Source of the DNA: an uncultured Pelagibacteraceae bacterium
GTDB taxonomy: Bacteria; Pseudomonadota; Alphaproteobacteria; Pelagibacterales; Pelagibacteraceae
Direction: 5' to 3'
DNA: 64,000 nucleotides
Assembly: GCA_902580115.1 (NCBI GenBank)
Contig: CACHJN010000003.1
Span: 43,685 to 107,684, forward strand
The first letter of the stretch is position 1, and each line of letters opens with the position of its first letter. A program made the position numbers and the translations under genes. The notes under the pieces were generated by a model, which saw only the letters and a program-made list of their open reading frames with translations, ran no database searches and was not told where the DNA came from. This document shows positions 38,796 to 48,028 of the stretch, one piece after another.

Positions 38796-39658
38796 TAAAA
38801 AAAGGAATTATATTAGCGGGTGGTTTAGGTACAAGAATGAGCCCAATCACAAAATCAGTAAATAAACAATTGCTTCCAATTTACGATAAACCTTTAATTT
38901 ATTATCCTCTTTCTATTCTGATGCTCTCAGGAATAAAAGATATATTAATTATTGTAAATAAAGGCCAAATAAATCAATTTAGAAAAATTTTAACAAATGG
39001 AAAAAAATTAGGAATTAATATTCAATATAAAGAGCAAAATGCACCAAATGGTTTACCAGAGGCCTTCATAATTGGAGAAAAATTCATTGGCAAAGAGGGA
39101 GTTGCATTAATACTTGGTGATAATTTTTTTTACGCTCAAAGTCTTACTAAAACTCTTCAAAATGCTAGAAAATTAAATCTTGGTGCTAAAGTTTTTTTAC
39201 ATCCAGTTAAAAATCCTAAACTTTATGGGATTGCAACAATAAAAAATAAAAAGATTACATATCTTAAAGAGAAGCCTACTATTACTAAATCTAATTTAGC
39301 TGTTACAGGCTTATATTTTTTTGATAAGCATGTGGTTAATTTTAGCAAAAATTTAAAACCGTCGAAAAGAAAAGAATTAGAAATAATAGATTTATTAAAC
39401 AAATATAAAAAAAAAAATAAATTAAGCTTTGAATTTTTAGGTAGAGGTGGGGCTTGGCTAGATGCGGGGTCAATTGATGATTACTATGATGCTACCTCAT
39501 TTGTTTCAGCTATAGAGAAAAGACAGGGTTTTAAAATAGCTTGTCTTGAAGAAATAGCTTTAACAAAAAAATGGATAAATAAAAAAGAGATTTTGGAAAG
39601 TATAAAATTTTACGGTAGTTGTGGCTATTCTCGATATTTAAAACAATTAATCAGTTAG
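38792..39658 (+). CDS. rfbA: glucose-1-phosphate thymidylyltransferase
   Basis: KGIILAGGLGTRMSPITKSVNKQLLPIYDKPLIYYPLS. Confidence 0.94.
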   Translation: MIKKGIILAGGLGTRMSPITKSVNKQLLPIYDKPLIYYPLSILMLSGIKDILIIVNKGQINQFRKILTNGKKLGINIQYKEQNAPNGLPEAFIIGEKFIGKEGVALILGDNFFYAQSLTKTLQNARKLNLGAKVFLHPVKNPKLYGIATIKNKKITYLKEKPTITKSNLAVTGLYFFDKHVVNFSKNLKPSKRKELEIIDLLNKYKKKNKLSFEFLGRGGAWLDAGSIDDYYDATSFVSAIEKRQGFKIACLEEIALTKKWINKKEILESIKFYGSCGYSRYLKQLIS

Positions 39659-40477
39659 ACTTATATTAATATCGTGAAACAGTATTGGTAATTCTTTAAA
39701 ATTGGCATTTTTTTTAAACCAGTAAGACATAAACCTCTCAGCCAGAAAACCATATATTCTTTTCATTCCATACCCTTTTAAATTATCAAAGCCAAATATA
39801 CTTTCACAGGATTCTAACCACGTAAAAAGGTCTTTATAATAATCTTTTAATAAATTTCTTGACTGACAAATAAACATATTATGAGGATTAAATGATACTT
39901 CGTTGTTAACAAAATTAATAAAATCATTTTTATTTTTAGAGTCTAGTAAATTCGCAGCTTTATCCAAATTTTTTCTACCGTGCATAAGGTCAAAATGAAA
40001 TTTAATATTTCTAGCCTTTTTACTAAATAAAATTTTTGGATTTGAAAGAACTAGAGGTAAACCCTTTTTTAAGAATTTCATAGTTTTTCTATTATTAACA
40101 TAAAAAGGGCTTCCTAAAATTACATCATATTGATCATACTCTTTTGGTACATTGTTTATTGTGTTATCTTTTAAATTTGAAATATTTAATTGCTCATTAG
40201 GAACAAATTTTAAAGACCAAAATTTCCTATATTGGCAAAAACCTATCCACCTATGCTTTATTTGATCTAAATAGTTTTTCCATAACCAATAATGAAAAGT
40301 ATATTCCCCATAATATTTGTTTTTTTGAGATATATTAATTCCATTTTTATCACCTAAACAATCTTTGGGGAAAAGTTTTTCTCCTAATCCAACAGGGGTA
40401 TAATCTAAAGTTTCGATAAACTTAAGATGAGATGGCTCTAATGTTAGACAGAACATTTTTAAATTTTTTTCATTCAT
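39647..40477 (-). CDS. DUF4422-like / capsular polysaccharide glycosyltransferase-like protein
   Basis: NISQKNKYYGEYTFHYWLWKNYLDQIKHRWIGFCQYRKFW. Confidence 0.6.
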   Translation of the reverse strand: MNEKNLKMFCLTLEPSHLKFIETLDYTPVGLGEKLFPKDCLGDKNGINISQKNKYYGEYTFHYWLWKNYLDQIKHRWIGFCQYRKFWSLKFVPNEQLNISNLKDNTINNVPKEYDQYDVILGSPFYVNNRKTMKFLKKGLPLVLSNPKILFSKKARNIKFHFDLMHGRKNLDKAANLLDSKNKNDFINFVNNEVSFNPHNMFICQSRNLLKDYYKDLFTWLESCESIFGFDNLKGYGMKRIYGFLAERFMSYWFKKNANFKELPILFHDINISLTD

Positions 40478-41362: not shown

Positions 41363-41439
41363 TGGTAGCGAGGGGCGGAGTCGAACCGCCGACCCCAGGC
41401 TTATGAGTCCTGTGCTCTAACCAACTGAGCTACCTCGCC
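41363..41439 (-). tRNA. tRNA-Met (CAU), elongator type, CCA encoded
   Basis: GGCGAGGTAGCTCAGTTGGTTAGAGCACAGGACTCATAAGCCTGGGGTCGGCGGTTCGACTCCGCCCCTCGCTACCA folds as a 77-nt cloverleaf; D-arm and variable loop match elongator Met. Confidence 0.92.
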
Positions 41440-42434: not shown

Positions 42435-43052
42435 ATGGATGAATTAAAAGCATTAATACTATTAATATCGAGTGGATTAATAATAAGATACTCTTTAACG
42501 TTGACTGGTCAAGCGTGGGCAAAATCTCATTCTCAAACAGTCGCCTTTATGATTTTACCAGTAATCACCTACGTAATTACAAAAACAATTGCTGGAAACA
42601 TAGCTTTATCACTGGGAATGATTGGTGCTTTGTCAATTGTAAGGTTTAGACACCCGGTAAAAAGTGCCTTAGAGTTAATAATGTACTTTGATCTTATAAC
42701 AATTGGAATTGCAACGAGTGTTAGAACTAAATGGGCTATTCAACTTGTTTTATGCACTGTCATAATTATTTTTGCAGTAAAATTTATACAAAAAATTTTA
42801 AATAAATCAGGTTCATCTTTTTATAACATGTCATTTAATGAGGGTAATACTGCTAACACTATTGAAATTGTCTCAAAACAAAAAATTGAATTTATTGAAA
42901 AAAGTGAGTTCTTATTAAATTCTCTAAATGATAAAAATAATCAAGAATTTACTTACAGATTATCTTTTAATAATAAAAAAGAGTTACAAGATTTTAAAGT
43001 TAAGTTGGAAAATGATAAAAATATTGAAAGAGTAAATACTATCTATAATTAA
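42435..43052 (+). CDS. DUF4956-family membrane protein
   Basis: Several TM segments and SLGMIGALSIVRFRHPVKSALELIMYF, a DUF4956-type motif. Confidence 0.82.
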   Translation: MDELKALILLISSGLIIRYSLTLTGQAWAKSHSQTVAFMILPVITYVITKTIAGNIALSLGMIGALSIVRFRHPVKSALELIMYFDLITIGIATSVRTKWAIQLVLCTVIIIFAVKFIQKILNKSGSSFYNMSFNEGNTANTIEIVSKQKIEFIEKSEFLLNSLNDKNNQEFTYRLSFNNKKELQDFKVKLENDKNIERVNTIYN

Positions 43053-43055
43053 ATT

Positions 43056-45395
43056 ATGAAAAAGATTGTTTTTCTTTTTTTTATTTTTACTTTTTTTTCT
43101 TTTGAAGTTCTTGCGAATAAAAAACTATCTGAAAAAGGTTTCACAGGCTGCAATTATAGTATCAACGAAAAAAATCTGAAAGAAATCAATTATTTAAAAA
43201 TAAAAAAAATTGGGGTAGATGTTCATAATTACAGAAACTGGATTGTAAATAGTATTAGGATAATAACCAGTAGATCACGATATGTTTCAGATACATATAA
43301 GCAAAGATTTAAATCAAATATATCTGTTGAATTTGAGGACGGTACTTTTTGTAACTTTACAGGAAGAATTAGGCATCATGGAGATGAAAAAGATCACATT
43401 AGTCTAACAGGAAACACAATTATACAAAGTATAGATGTGCATTTAGATAATGGAAATATTAGAGGAATTACTAAATTTAAACTTCTTAGGCCAAATACAA
43501 GAGGAAAACTTGAAGACGAAATTTTTTTAACAGAACTTCTCAGGAACTTAAATTTTTTAGCACCAAGAACTATGAGAGTTGATGTTAGAATTAATGAAGC
43601 AAATTCTGTTATGATTTTTCAAGAAAAAGCAGCAAAAGAGTTATTAGAGTTCAATAATAGAAGAGAAGGACCAATATTTGAGGGTGACGAAAGATTTTTT
43701 TTTAGGACCGTAAAAAAATTACCATCTAATCAAAAAAGTAATTGGGATATTGGTGTCGTACCATTAATGAACAATAGTGTTAAACATCTTTTGGCACGTC
43801 AAGTTAATACTAATATAATGCAAAAAAGTGATGGTTTAAACAAGATGTCTTTCAACTCTTCAACAAATCTAAATTTAATATATCTTTATTACTCAAATAG
43901 ATTCCAAGATGGAACAAATAATTTTAATTATTTTGATTATGATTTAGATAACACTTTACTTGCTATGTTTAACCCAGAAAATATAATGAAATTAGACGCA
44001 TATAATCTACTAATTCAATCTACAAATAGTCAACACGGTTTAGCTGCTAATAACAGAAAATTTTTTTGGAACTCTATTGAAAATTACTATGAACCAATAA
44101 ATTATGACTCAAATCCAAACATAGATTTAAAAAAACCAACAATTACAACGGCGATATACAGGCTTCCCATATCAGAAAACTTTATAAGCGCTTTCGGGTT
44201 TCTCGAAGAAAAACTTCTAAATCTTAATTTAAAAAATATAAGCGATAACATTGATAATTCTGGAATTAACATGACAAAAAAAGAAGTCTCTGAGAAAGTT
44301 AAAAAGATATTAAATAATCTTAATGTAATTAAAATTAACTACTTAAATATAGATAATCAAGCTTTGCTAGAGCATAATAAATTTAAACCTATAGATAATT
44401 TATTGGATAGATTTAATGAAACTTTAAATGAAGTAGAGCCAAATGTTTTTCTTGTTAAATATAATGAAAAAAATGGAAATTTACAAAGATGTAAAATCTT
44501 TTTAAAAGACTGTAAAGATTATAATTTTTCTCAAGAAAATTTAACGGATTTATTAGAAGGTGAATTGATATTAAATGAAAAAATATATCAATTTTTAGGA
44601 AAAAGTTTTAATTTTGAAAGTATCAAAAAGAATAGAAATTTTAACAAAATTAATTTTGGTGACTCAAATATCTTTTATGAAGATGGAATTAACTTAAAAA
44701 TAGATCAACAAAATAAATTGTTAGAAATCATTCAAAATGAAGTGGGATCTAGAGCTTATATTATAAACGGAACTTTATCTGATCTTAAAATTAAGTTTTA
44801 TGGTTTAAATAATGAAATAACAAACGCAAAACCAAAAAATTTTCCAAATGATAGTAACGGACTTACAGGTTGCTTATCATTAATAAATTTAGAGGTTAAG
44901 AATATTCATTTATTTGCTCAAAATTCAAATTGTGAAGATGCAATTAATTTAATTAATGTAAAAGGTTCGGTCAACGAAGTCATTGTCAAAAATTCATATA
45001 GTGATGGTTTTGATGTAGATTTCTCAAATGTTAAAATTAAAAACTTAAAAATTGAAAATTCAAAAAACGATTGTGTAGATTTTTCCTCTGGAAATTATGT
45101 TTTAAGTGAATTAATTTTAAATAATTGTGGAGATAAAGCTTTGTCTGTTGGAGAAGGGTCTAAAATAAATATTCAAAATTTAAAGGCATCAAATTCGAAC
45201 ATGGGTGTCGCATCAAAGGATAGCTCTATTGTTAATTTAGATAATTTAAAAGTTAATAATGTGTCAACATGTTTAGCCGCTTATAAAAAAAAACAAGAAT
45301 TTAATGGAGGAGTGATTAATATAAACAATAATTTTTATTGTAATAATTTTAAGGATAAACTAACAACAGATGAGTTTTCTATAATTAATAACTAA
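43056..45395 (+). CDS. secreted CotH-like protein with C-terminal parallel beta-helix repeats
   Basis: Signal peptide MKKIVFLFFIFTFFSFEVLA; CotH-like RIRHHGDEKDH, VMIFQEKAAKELLE, NNRKFFWNSIENYYEPINYDSN; C-terminal degenerate beta-helix repeats. Confidence 0.65.
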   Translation: MKKIVFLFFIFTFFSFEVLANKKLSEKGFTGCNYSINEKNLKEINYLKIKKIGVDVHNYRNWIVNSIRIITSRSRYVSDTYKQRFKSNISVEFEDGTFCNFTGRIRHHGDEKDHISLTGNTIIQSIDVHLDNGNIRGITKFKLLRPNTRGKLEDEIFLTELLRNLNFLAPRTMRVDVRINEANSVMIFQEKAAKELLEFNNRREGPIFEGDERFFFRTVKKLPSNQKSNWDIGVVPLMNNSVKHLLARQVNTNIMQKSDGLNKMSFNSSTNLNLIYLYYSNRFQDGTNNFNYFDYDLDNTLLAMFNPENIMKLDAYNLLIQSTNSQHGLAANNRKFFWNSIENYYEPINYDSNPNIDLKKPTITTAIYRLPISENFISAFGFLEEKLLNLNLKNISDNIDNSGINMTKKEVSEKVKKILNNLNVIKINYLNIDNQALLEHNKFKPIDNLLDRFNETLNEVEPNVFLVKYNEKNGNLQRCKIFLKDCKDYNFSQENLTDLLEGELILNEKIYQFLGKSFNFESIKKNRNFNKINFGDSNIFYEDGINLKIDQQNKLLEIIQNEVGSRAYIINGTLSDLKIKFYGLNNEITNAKPKNFPNDSNGLTGCLSLINLEVKNIHLFAQNSNCEDAINLINVKGSVNEVIVKNSYSDGFDVDFSNVKIKNLKIENSKNDCVDFSSGNYVLSELILNNCGDKALSVGEGSKINIQNLKASNSNMGVASKDSSIVNLDNLKVNNVSTCLAAYKKKQEFNGGVININNNFYCNNFKDKLTTDEFSIINN

Positions 45396-45407
45396 ATTAA
45401 AAAAATT

Positions 45408-46001
45408 ATGAGCTTCAGAAAAGAAGAAAAACTTTATATCAAATCCGAACATATTTTTGATTTTAAAAAATTTCTTGAGAATCGTTCTGTAAAAAATTTA
45501 TATAAGCCAAGAAGAATTAAGAGTTTGTATTTTGATAATTTAAATTATGATATGTATAATGACTCTATCGAAGGTGTCGTGCCAAGAAAAAAAATAAGAG
45601 TAAGAGAATATCCAGGTGAAATCGATAAAAAATATTATTTAGAAATTAAACACTCATCTGTAGAGGGGAGATTCAAAACAAGAGAAATAGTTAAAAAAGA
45701 AAGATTTGAATTTTTAAAAAAAACAGGAATTTTAGACACTAGATATGGTACTTGCCTACCTAATTATTACGTTTCGTACGATAGAGAATATTTAATTATT
45801 AATGATGTTAGAATATCAATAGACACAAATCTTTTATATCAAGACTTTAAATCAAAATTAAGATATGTTGACAATAATTGTATTGTTGAGTTGAAAACCT
45901 CAATTAATAAAGATCATGATAAATTAATTGAAGAATTTCCTTTTCAAAGAATTAGGTTTTCAAAATACTGTTATGCTGTTGAAAACTTCAGTTACAAATA
46001 A
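45408..46001 (+). CDS. VTC-domain polyphosphate polymerase-like protein
   Basis: RIKSLYFDNLNYDMY, RKKIRVREYPG, YYLEIKHSSVEGRFKTRE, VSYDREYL, IVELKTS, RFSKYCYAVE. Confidence 0.85.
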   Translation: MSFRKEEKLYIKSEHIFDFKKFLENRSVKNLYKPRRIKSLYFDNLNYDMYNDSIEGVVPRKKIRVREYPGEIDKKYYLEIKHSSVEGRFKTREIVKKERFEFLKKTGILDTRYGTCLPNYYVSYDREYLIINDVRISIDTNLLYQDFKSKLRYVDNNCIVELKTSINKDHDKLIEEFPFQRIRFSKYCYAVENFSYK

Positions 46002-47101
46002 TTTAATATCTCTTTAAAATCCACACTAATATATCCATGTTGATTATTTTGGTTAAATTTTTCAGGCACTTTTGCAATAGAGTAATAATTTAATGAGCAC
46101 TTCTTGGCAAGGTTTTCATACATCATCCCAGCGCCTGAAGGTTTAAGTTCTATAATTTTTGTTCCAGGTTTACAAAATACTAAGTTTGTAAATCCTCCTC
46201 CATGAAGACCTATTATAATGTCTGCGTTTTGAAAAATTTTCACTTGTTTAACAAAAGATAAATTACTTAATTTAATGATTTTAAAACCGATCTTATCTAG
46301 CTGACTTTTAATCTCATTATCATTTATAATTTTTCTCATCATGCTTAGATTTGAAGTTGCATCGCTCCTATCAATATAAATTTTTTTTGGTAAATCTTCG
46401 TTCTGATTAATTTCAGTTTCTTTTAAAAAAGTTTCTTGTAACCACCTTATTATCCACATCGGAACATTTTGAATTTCGTCGGTTGCATTATTTTTGATTA
46501 CATAAGGATGATCAGTACATATTATTTTTTCGCAAGATAAATGTCTATTTTTTAAACTAGATAATCTTTTTGAATTTGGAATTTTAAAAAAATCAATAGT
46601 CTCCTGTTGAAATTTTTTTTCTAAATTAGGAAATAAAAAATAGTCTTTTTCATCAAAGGTTATCTTTTTTGAAAGTATCTTAATTCTAGGCAATACATCA
46701 AACATCCAATGCCAGTAATTATGATTTCCTGCTCCTCCAGTCAAAAGAGAAAACAATCTATTATTTAATTTTTTTTTTAATCTTGGGGTGCCTTTATTAA
46801 AAACTATATTTTTTTTTATATCTTCAAATTTTACATCTCTTATTTGAAAAGAAGGGCCTTCAATAATCTTATTGTCCTGAATAATAGCAGTATCACTAAC
46901 AGTATCTGTATAAATTCTTGCATGATAATTATAATAAATCTTATAATTAAAACTATCATCAACTTTAGATAATTCGACAAAAGAATTTTTGTCTGATCCT
47001 GCTTTTTTAAAATCTTTTATTGGCCCATATAAGATTTTAAATATCCCATAACCTGTTTTTTTAAATATAGATTGTAATTTTTTATTAATATTATTTATCA
47101 A
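45992..47101 (-). CDS. glycosyltransferase family 61 (DUF563)
   Basis: GGAGNHNYWHWMFDVLPRIK, IIGLHGGGFTNLVFCKPGTKIIEL. Confidence 0.84.
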   Translation of the reverse strand: MINNINKKLQSIFKKTGYGIFKILYGPIKDFKKAGSDKNSFVELSKVDDSFNYKIYYNYHARIYTDTVSDTAIIQDNKIIEGPSFQIRDVKFEDIKKNIVFNKGTPRLKKKLNNRLFSLLTGGAGNHNYWHWMFDVLPRIKILSKKITFDEKDYFLFPNLEKKFQQETIDFFKIPNSKRLSSLKNRHLSCEKIICTDHPYVIKNNATDEIQNVPMWIIRWLQETFLKETEINQNEDLPKKIYIDRSDATSNLSMMRKIINDNEIKSQLDKIGFKIIKLSNLSFVKQVKIFQNADIIIGLHGGGFTNLVFCKPGTKIIELKPSGAGMMYENLAKKCSLNYYSIAKVPEKFNQNNQHGYISVDFKEILNYL

Positions 47102-47107
47102 TTTTTT

Positions 47108-48028
47108 TTAGATTTTTGTTTCTATATATAATTTTTTAAAAAACATTTCAAAATGAACTTGGTGATAAAAATCATAGGCCTTTTTTCCAACCGGAAAGAC
47201 TACCGGAAAATCAGGTGATGCTTCTAATAATCTTGGAACTTTTAACCCTTCAGCAACTGAATAAGCAAAACACTCGTTGCCTATAAATAATCTACAGGAT
47301 TTTATAATTTGGGCTAATTCAAGAAAATCTTTGCAATCGTAGAATTCTAAGTTTTTGATACTTTTTTTTAAATCTTCGTACTCACTTTTAAGGCCAATAC
47401 TTATTATTTTGTCTTCAGTTTTATTTAAAAAACTGTAATTAATGAAATCATTTCTATAACGAGGAGACCTGACTATAATAATATTATTTTTTAATTTATT
47501 GTGTTCCTCGACTTCAAGATAAGGTTGACCCATATCAATTTGAACTCCTGTCAGATGAACATACCATCTAGTAGAGTGGAATTTAATATCTATTGGAACT
47601 TCTCTAAAAAGATCTAAATTAACGTCTATTTCCTCATTATTGTGAATTGAAACTTTATTGATAAATTTTTGATTATTAATTAAAGGTATAAACAATTCTA
47701 CCATTCTTTTGTCTAAATATACATTTCCTGAGGGATGATTTGTATATTTTACAGGCATCTTTTTACCTACCCCTATAAATAAGTTGCATTTATGAGTTTT
47801 GGATAATTCCTTAATTAAGGGTAGAGAATAAATAATGTCACCTAAATGTCCTGAATGAAGAAAATTTAATTCGGTTTTTTCTTCTATTTTCCGTCTTATT
47901 TTAAGAATAGCATTATATATATTGGAGTCATATTGATCTAAAATTACTTTTTTTTTTTCAAAAGCTTTTAACTCTTGATATTTACTTTTATTAAAAAACT
48001 TATAAAAAATTTTTCTTAAAATTATCAT
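47108..48028 (-). CDS. glycosyltransferase-like protein (divergent GT9-like)
   Basis: FLHSGHLGDIIYSLPLIKEL, LFIGNECFAYSVAEGLKVPRLLE. Confidence 0.6.
   Translation of the reverse strand: MIILRKIFYKFFNKSKYQELKAFEKKKVILDQYDSNIYNAILKIRRKIEEKTELNFLHSGHLGDIIYSLPLIKELSKTHKCNLFIGVGKKMPVKYTNHPSGNVYLDKRMVELFIPLINNQKFINKVSIHNNEEIDVNLDLFREVPIDIKFHSTRWYVHLTGVQIDMGQPYLEVEEHNKLKNNIIIVRSPRYRNDFINYSFLNKTEDKIISIGLKSEYEDLKKSIKNLEFYDCKDFLELAQIIKSCRLFIGNECFAYSVAEGLKVPRLLEASPDFPVVFPVGKKAYDFYHQVHFEMFFKKLYIETKI

Follow-up and report, generated by a model that had tools for sequence, protein, structure and literature searches.

The window, i.e., the whole analyzed stretch of 64,000 nucleotides from an uncultured Pelagibacteraceae bacterium, contains a cassette of three intact open reading frames on the same strand, which are separated by 3 and 12 bp and are flanked on both sides by genes on the opposite strand. 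This arrangement matches exactly that given by an earlier sequence-only reading. The features of the cassette are the following:

42435..43052, + strand: DUF4956 membrane protein, 205 aa (PF16316)
43056..45395, + strand: secreted CotH-fold/right-handed beta-helix protein, 779 aa (CotH profile, model, Foldseek)
43056..43121, + strand: signal-peptide-like N-terminus of the latter, residues 1-22 (hydrophobic segment; helix 2-22 in the model)
43308..44345, + strand: CotH-fold part, about residues 85-430 (alignments)
44034-44036, + strand: H327, the Asp228 position (alignments)
44106-44108, + strand: D351, the Asp251 position (alignments)
44733..45392, + strand: beta-helix part, about residues 560-779 (model, alignments, Foldseek, Pfam Beta_helix in relatives)
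45408..46001, + strand: soluble VTC (triphosphate tunnel) domain, 197 aa (PF09359, Vtc4 profile match, residue map)

The neighborhood in the window comprises GT61, GT2, and DUF4422 genes and a gene with a weak FkbM-type methyltransferase match in Pfam, which is in line with a surface-glycan island. Within this region a tRNA-Met gene (window positions 41363-41439, - strand) lies 1 kb from the cassette and is a possible insertion site. The loci most closely related to the DUF4956 gene of the window stem from Pelagibacteraceae, by which the genome is judged to be SAR11-like (Pelagibacterales).

The first gene encodes a DUF4956 protein (PF16316, E=8e-11, 42.4 bits, cut-off 30.6) with four predicted hydrophobic segments, in agreement with its earlier description as a multi-TM protein. 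In the AlphaFold model (pLDDT 86) membrane helices occupy residues 2-125 and a soluble domain residues 141-203. The C-terminal domain has the order beta-alpha-beta-beta-alpha-beta and is ACT-like according to weak fold matches; most matches of the fold search were of the ACT/Lrp type and covered the soluble part, and no match had an E-value below 0.001. The membrane part has a weak profile similarity to the MgtC family (PF02308), which also shares the ACT-like tail, but the hhalign match (E=7e-4, probability 27%, one pair) is below the safe threshold; the best of 20 shuffles, which served as control, reached E=0.03. Independently, the Streptococcus intermedius homolog has been described as an MgtC-type transmembrane region plus an ACT domain (PMC12345266). 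DUF4956 differs from MgtC in its conserved motif, GALSIxRFR. The residues of the longer motif SLGxxGALSIxRFR are invariant over 42 DUF4956 sequences, and GxxGALSIxRFR represents residues 61-72 of the window protein. The positive-inside rule indicates that the RFR loop probably faces the cytoplasm.

The VTC protein is assigned by Pfam (PF09359, E=1.8e-21, 77 bits, cut-off 23), and a profile of 19 relatives matches yeast Vtc4 (3g3q, E=1e-18). All ten of the Vtc4 tunnel residues that were compared are present in the window protein (K8, R64, R66, K81, R126, R135, E161, K163, S185, and K186), in agreement with the earlier claim that the tunnel residues are retained, and this polymerase-type set is invariant. 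It includes the counterparts of R264, R266, and E426, the triple mutation of which impairs Vtc4 (PMC9911596), and that of K458, which is catalytic in Vtc4 (PMC4641920). The compact protein has neither an SPX nor a TM part, as had been read from the sequence, and the absence of a TM segment from VTC is the rule, with one exception in 56. Its soluble domain suggests that it is presumably cytoplasmic. Reviews assign bacterial polyphosphate synthesis to PPK and present VTC as eukaryotic (PMC7332688, PMC10657179). A comparison of 101 SAR11-group genomes led us to reject VTC as a substitute for PPK1, which is present in six of the 15 genomes with VTC versus 40 of the 86 others (P=0.78). The two enzymes are thus unrelated in their distribution, and VTC is not simply a replacement of the usual polymerase. 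The bacterial VTC protein is probably a polymerase, and we regard it as likely that it forms one complex with DUF4956.

The 779-aa protein alone yielded zero Pfam matches. A profile of 16 relatives matches Bacillus CotH (PDB 5jd9, E=1e-13), and Pfam searches with these relatives detected PF08757 in seven and Beta_helix in five of the 16. The AlphaFold model (pLDDT 83, pTM 0.83) has CotH 5jda as its best Foldseek match among solved structures (E=3e-10), with Fam20 proteins further down, and its tail matches the beta-helix of PL3 pectate lyases (E=2e-3). An assignment of the tail as a PL3 pectate lyase was rejected, as the resemblance is one of fold only, with no Pfam match and a profile probability of 6.6%. 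An N-terminal hydrophobic segment is present in 50 of 53 CotH proteins. The earlier description as a secreted CotH-like beta-helix protein therefore holds for the fold and the signal-peptide-like start, but one of the two Asp residues that are essential in Bacillus CotH, D228 and D251 (PMC7821199), is replaced by His. When the two positions are located in the alignment from their spacing of 23 residues, the Asp228 position is His in all 18 beta-helix-type CotH proteins (H327 in the window), while Asp251 is Asp in all 18 (D351 in the window). CotH proteins from the same loci that lack a beta-helix tail have Asp228 in 31 of 36 cases, and thus the fusion and the active-site change go together. 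The His in beta-helix-fused CotH proteins is newly described here; two further trios of the G183 family also have it. The window protein thus shares the fold and Asp251 with Bacillus CotH and differs from it by the His, the signal-peptide-like start, and the C-terminal beta-helix. The latter is the best conserved part of the protein and holds most of its invariant residues (D628, D650, D653, D655, D672, D675, D693, K694, E700, and K721). The His argues against taking it for granted that the protein is an ordinary CotH kinase that depends on ATP: the CotH-like character that had been read from the sequence is true of the fold, the kinase activity is a different matter, and the domain is either a pseudokinase or performs other chemistry. 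A function of the CotH part as a transferase is possible rather than probable.

The expectation that this association recurs in other bacteria was borne out. Among 299 Pseudomonadota genomes, DUF4956 is present in ten, VTC above the cut-off in seven, and both in seven (P=3e-12). A DUF4956 search of genome contigs retrieved 80 loci from Pelagibacteraceae, Prochlorococcus-labelled single cells, Actinomarina, Paenibacillus, Clostridia, Thiodiazotropha, and others, so that the related loci span many phyla. Good flanks were available for 51 DUF4956 loci, 43 of which contain VTC and 35 CotH according to its own profile, with seven more CotH genes recognized by Pfam; in six of these loci CotH occurs without VTC. 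The pairwise distances of the three proteins correlate across 25 loci (r=0.94, reached in 0 of 2000 permutations), part of which represents shared organismal history. VTC was found in 15 of 101 genomes of the genus and order, all 15 in the genus of the window, and the CotH-like and DUF4956 genes adjoin VTC in the SAR11 loci wherever the contig is long enough. The SAR11 copies occupy unrelated sites, namely, a glycan island with GT61, DUF4422, and 47108-type genes (L022, L026, L027), a site between a tenA-like gene and apr genes (L029, L030, L031, L032), a site near EF-Tu (L023, L025), and others elsewhere. The proposed location in a surface-glycan region is therefore true for the window but not general. 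From the co-occurrence, the recurrence at unrelated SAR11 sites, and the co-inheritance we conclude that the trio is a real unit. Two results that would have refuted the earlier reading, a loss of the VTC catalytic residues and a lack of conserved co-occurrence, were thus not obtained. The apr genes of L029-L032, which represent a second type of the cassette within SAR11, look like aprM, aprB, and aprA, names that were given by eye from the sequence. The GT61, 47108-type, and DUF4422 genes of the window (positions 45992-48028 and 39647-40477) also surround the cassette in three further SAR11 genomes (L022, L026, L027) and may travel with it.

The unit is also modular. Nine G183-family loci have the DUF4956-VTC pair but no detected CotH, which makes CotH an optional accessory partner. 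In two other genomes of this family DUF4956 and CotH occur together; in one of them a profile places VTC next to the two, and in the other VTC was recognized by the genome search. A PHO4 phosphate transporter gene adjoins the pair in only two of the nine CotH-less loci, one of which also has a phytase-like gene; PHO4 was therefore rejected as a constant partner.

The trio is known as the accessory genes cotH-PPP-DUF4956-DUF4832 of Gram-positive Pel clusters (PMC7112168), and the earlier statement that no function is defined has to be updated. For S. intermedius (SIR_1594/1593/1592) it has been shown that deletion of the DUF4956 homolog raised Pel, deletion of the CotH homolog lowered Pel, each of them reduced aggregation, and deletion of the VTC homolog had no phenotype (PMC12345266). 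The authors of that study, published in 2025, proposed that the genes function in phosphate metabolism and encountered the arrangement in Pel loci only. PelG (PF16933) was found in none of 61 SAR11-group genomes, with the window's own genome being 76% complete, and the published restriction of the trio to Pel loci thus does not hold and is corrected here. The Pel accessory loci and the SAR11 cassette have the same three adjacent families in common, but no DUF4832 gene was seen beside the SAR11 copies, and the tail of CotH is FN3 in S. intermedius but a beta-helix in SAR11, where CotH has His at the Asp228 position. VTC and CotH genes are also clustered in NELoc-2 of Clostridium perfringens (PMC2879425), which differs from the cassette by a duplicated VTC pair next to a chitin-synthase-like gene and for which no beta-helix fusion was reported. 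The "tubulin/FtsZ GTPase" genes of NELoc-2 are probably DUF4956 genes, as their size, place, and predicted membrane location suggest; the tubulin/FtsZ label of these homologs is not supported. Taken together, the gene set, which had been published without a settled function, has a wider distribution and a more modular composition than previously described.

From the component identities, their linkage, and their predicted locations we infer a line of synthesis, export, and transfer. On the inner side of the membrane, VTC would use ATP to synthesize polyphosphate. DUF4956 would dock VTC, and its RFR motif would receive the chain and pass it across, as the basic channel of yeast VTC does. In the periplasm, the CotH/beta-helix protein would bind a surface polymer and either decorate it with the delivered phosphate or attach polyphosphate to it. 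We know of no ATP supply in the periplasm. The Vtc1/Vtc3/Vtc4 complex of yeast, in which synthesis is coupled to passage via a channel lined with basic residues (PMC9911596), shares with the cassette the tunnel domain, the active-site residues, and the possession of a membrane partner. However, the cassette has no SPX domain and no fused DUF202-type TM region, and DUF4956 is unrelated to the yeast partner as far as tested.

Our preferred, albeit tentative, reading is that VTC produces polyphosphate, which via DUF4956 acts on a surface polymer. It is supported by the retention of all ten compared Vtc4 residues, the co-occurrence of DUF4956 and VTC together with the co-inheritance of all three proteins, the predicted locations (VTC without TM segment, CotH with a hydrophobic N-terminus), which fit a line through the membrane, the two loci with an adjoining PHO4 gene, the coupling of synthesis and passage in yeast, and the altered exopolysaccharide and aggregation of the S. 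intermedius DUF4956 and CotH deletion mutants. It is weakened by the lack of a phenotype of the S. intermedius VTC deletion, the His in place of the essential Asp228, the restriction of PHO4 to two of nine CotH-less loci, the distance of several SAR11 copies from glycan genes, and the six loci that have CotH without VTC. In addition, no Pho box was found upstream of the cassette, and no activity of any bacterial member is reported in the cited literature. Export of polyphosphate across the membrane, one part of this reading, comes close to an even chance. A more specific version, in which VTC and DUF4956 would make and export polyphosphate and the CotH-fold protein, with His in place of Asp228 and a beta-helix that would bind glycan, would use it instead of ATP for phosphotransfer to surface glycans or proteins outside the cytoplasm, is unlikely.

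The cassette could also be a regulatory module, in which VTC and DUF4956, via its ACT domain and MgtC-like membrane part, would sense internal phosphate, ATP, or polyphosphate and pass a signal on to a secreted pseudokinase with a CotH fold, the beta-helix of which would bind and possibly cleave surface glycan and thereby tune its amount or attachment. The invariant His, the strong conservation of the beta-helix, the ACT-like tail of DUF4956, and the opposite Pel levels of the DUF4956 and CotH mutants, with Pel unaffected by the VTC deletion, are in agreement with this idea. However, a complete and invariant polymerase residue set would be superfluous for a sensor, and the retention of Asp251 in 18 of 18 proteins is unusual for a dead kinase, so that we consider such a module to be somewhat unlikely. 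Polyphosphate could further be synthesized and exported for its own sake, to serve as a phosphate or cation store or a capsule-like polyanion, and the CotH/beta-helix protein would then function in anchoring or binding and not as an enzyme. The nine CotH-less loci, including the two with PHO4, and the complete active site of VTC agree with this proposal. The presence of CotH in most other loci and the missing relation of PPK1 to VTC make it quite improbable. Even less credit is given to the VTC domain as a tripolyphosphatase-type tunnel enzyme that hydrolyzes short polyphosphates or triphosphates. Tunnel enzymes of bacteria and plants to which it is related act as phosphatases (PMC4641920), and E6 of the window protein is acidic, like the ExExK motif of these enzymes, but the first place of the motif is Arg and not Glu. 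Furthermore, the metal site has the Vtc4-type pair E-x-K in place of E-x-E, while the phosphatase AtTTM3 has Glu at the second place, and the match of Vtc4 Lys458 is invariant, yet its counterpart is dispensable in AtTTM3 (PMC4641920).

Together with its dedicated membrane partner, VTC would give bacteria a second route to polyphosphate, which is perhaps coupled to export. To our knowledge, kinases outside the bacterial cytoplasm have no evident phosphate donor. The conserved gene set points to a candidate and opens the question to tests. The cassette is present in streamlined ocean bacteria with few extra genes, and it suggests an uncharted way to put phosphate on the cell surface.

Several loci have additional genes or unexpected sources. 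In SAR11, a fourth, membrane-anchored protein of 340-342 aa is encoded between DUF4956 and CotH (L021:9016-10041, - strand; L023:3145-4164, + strand), for which Pfam gave no match with the L021 protein, and a secreted metallophosphoesterase-like protein (L025:2905-3924, - strand; Metallophos E=0.014, below the cut-off) adjoins the CotH-like gene. An extra secreted protein of 325-329 aa with a C-terminal TM segment lies between DUF4956 and CotH in L086:7591-8577 and L087:7609-8583; it has only a weak DUF6583 match and putative tunnel-enzyme-like motifs recognized by eye. A 211-aa gene product with a hydrophobic start is encoded between CotH and VTC in L186:3987-4619 (+ strand), where the trio lies beside glycan-export-like genes. 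DUF4956 loci were also found in bins labelled Micrarchaeota and Woesearchaeota (L084, L134); the L084 trio adjoins a cellulose-synthase-like GT2 gene, looks Bacillota-like, and may be a contamination. Three Prochlorococcus-labelled single-cell contigs (L076, L077, L078), two of them with the trio, are among the closest non-SAR11 relatives of the window DUF4956, with 37-44% identity, and these cassettes reflect either transfer among ocean picoplankton or contamination.
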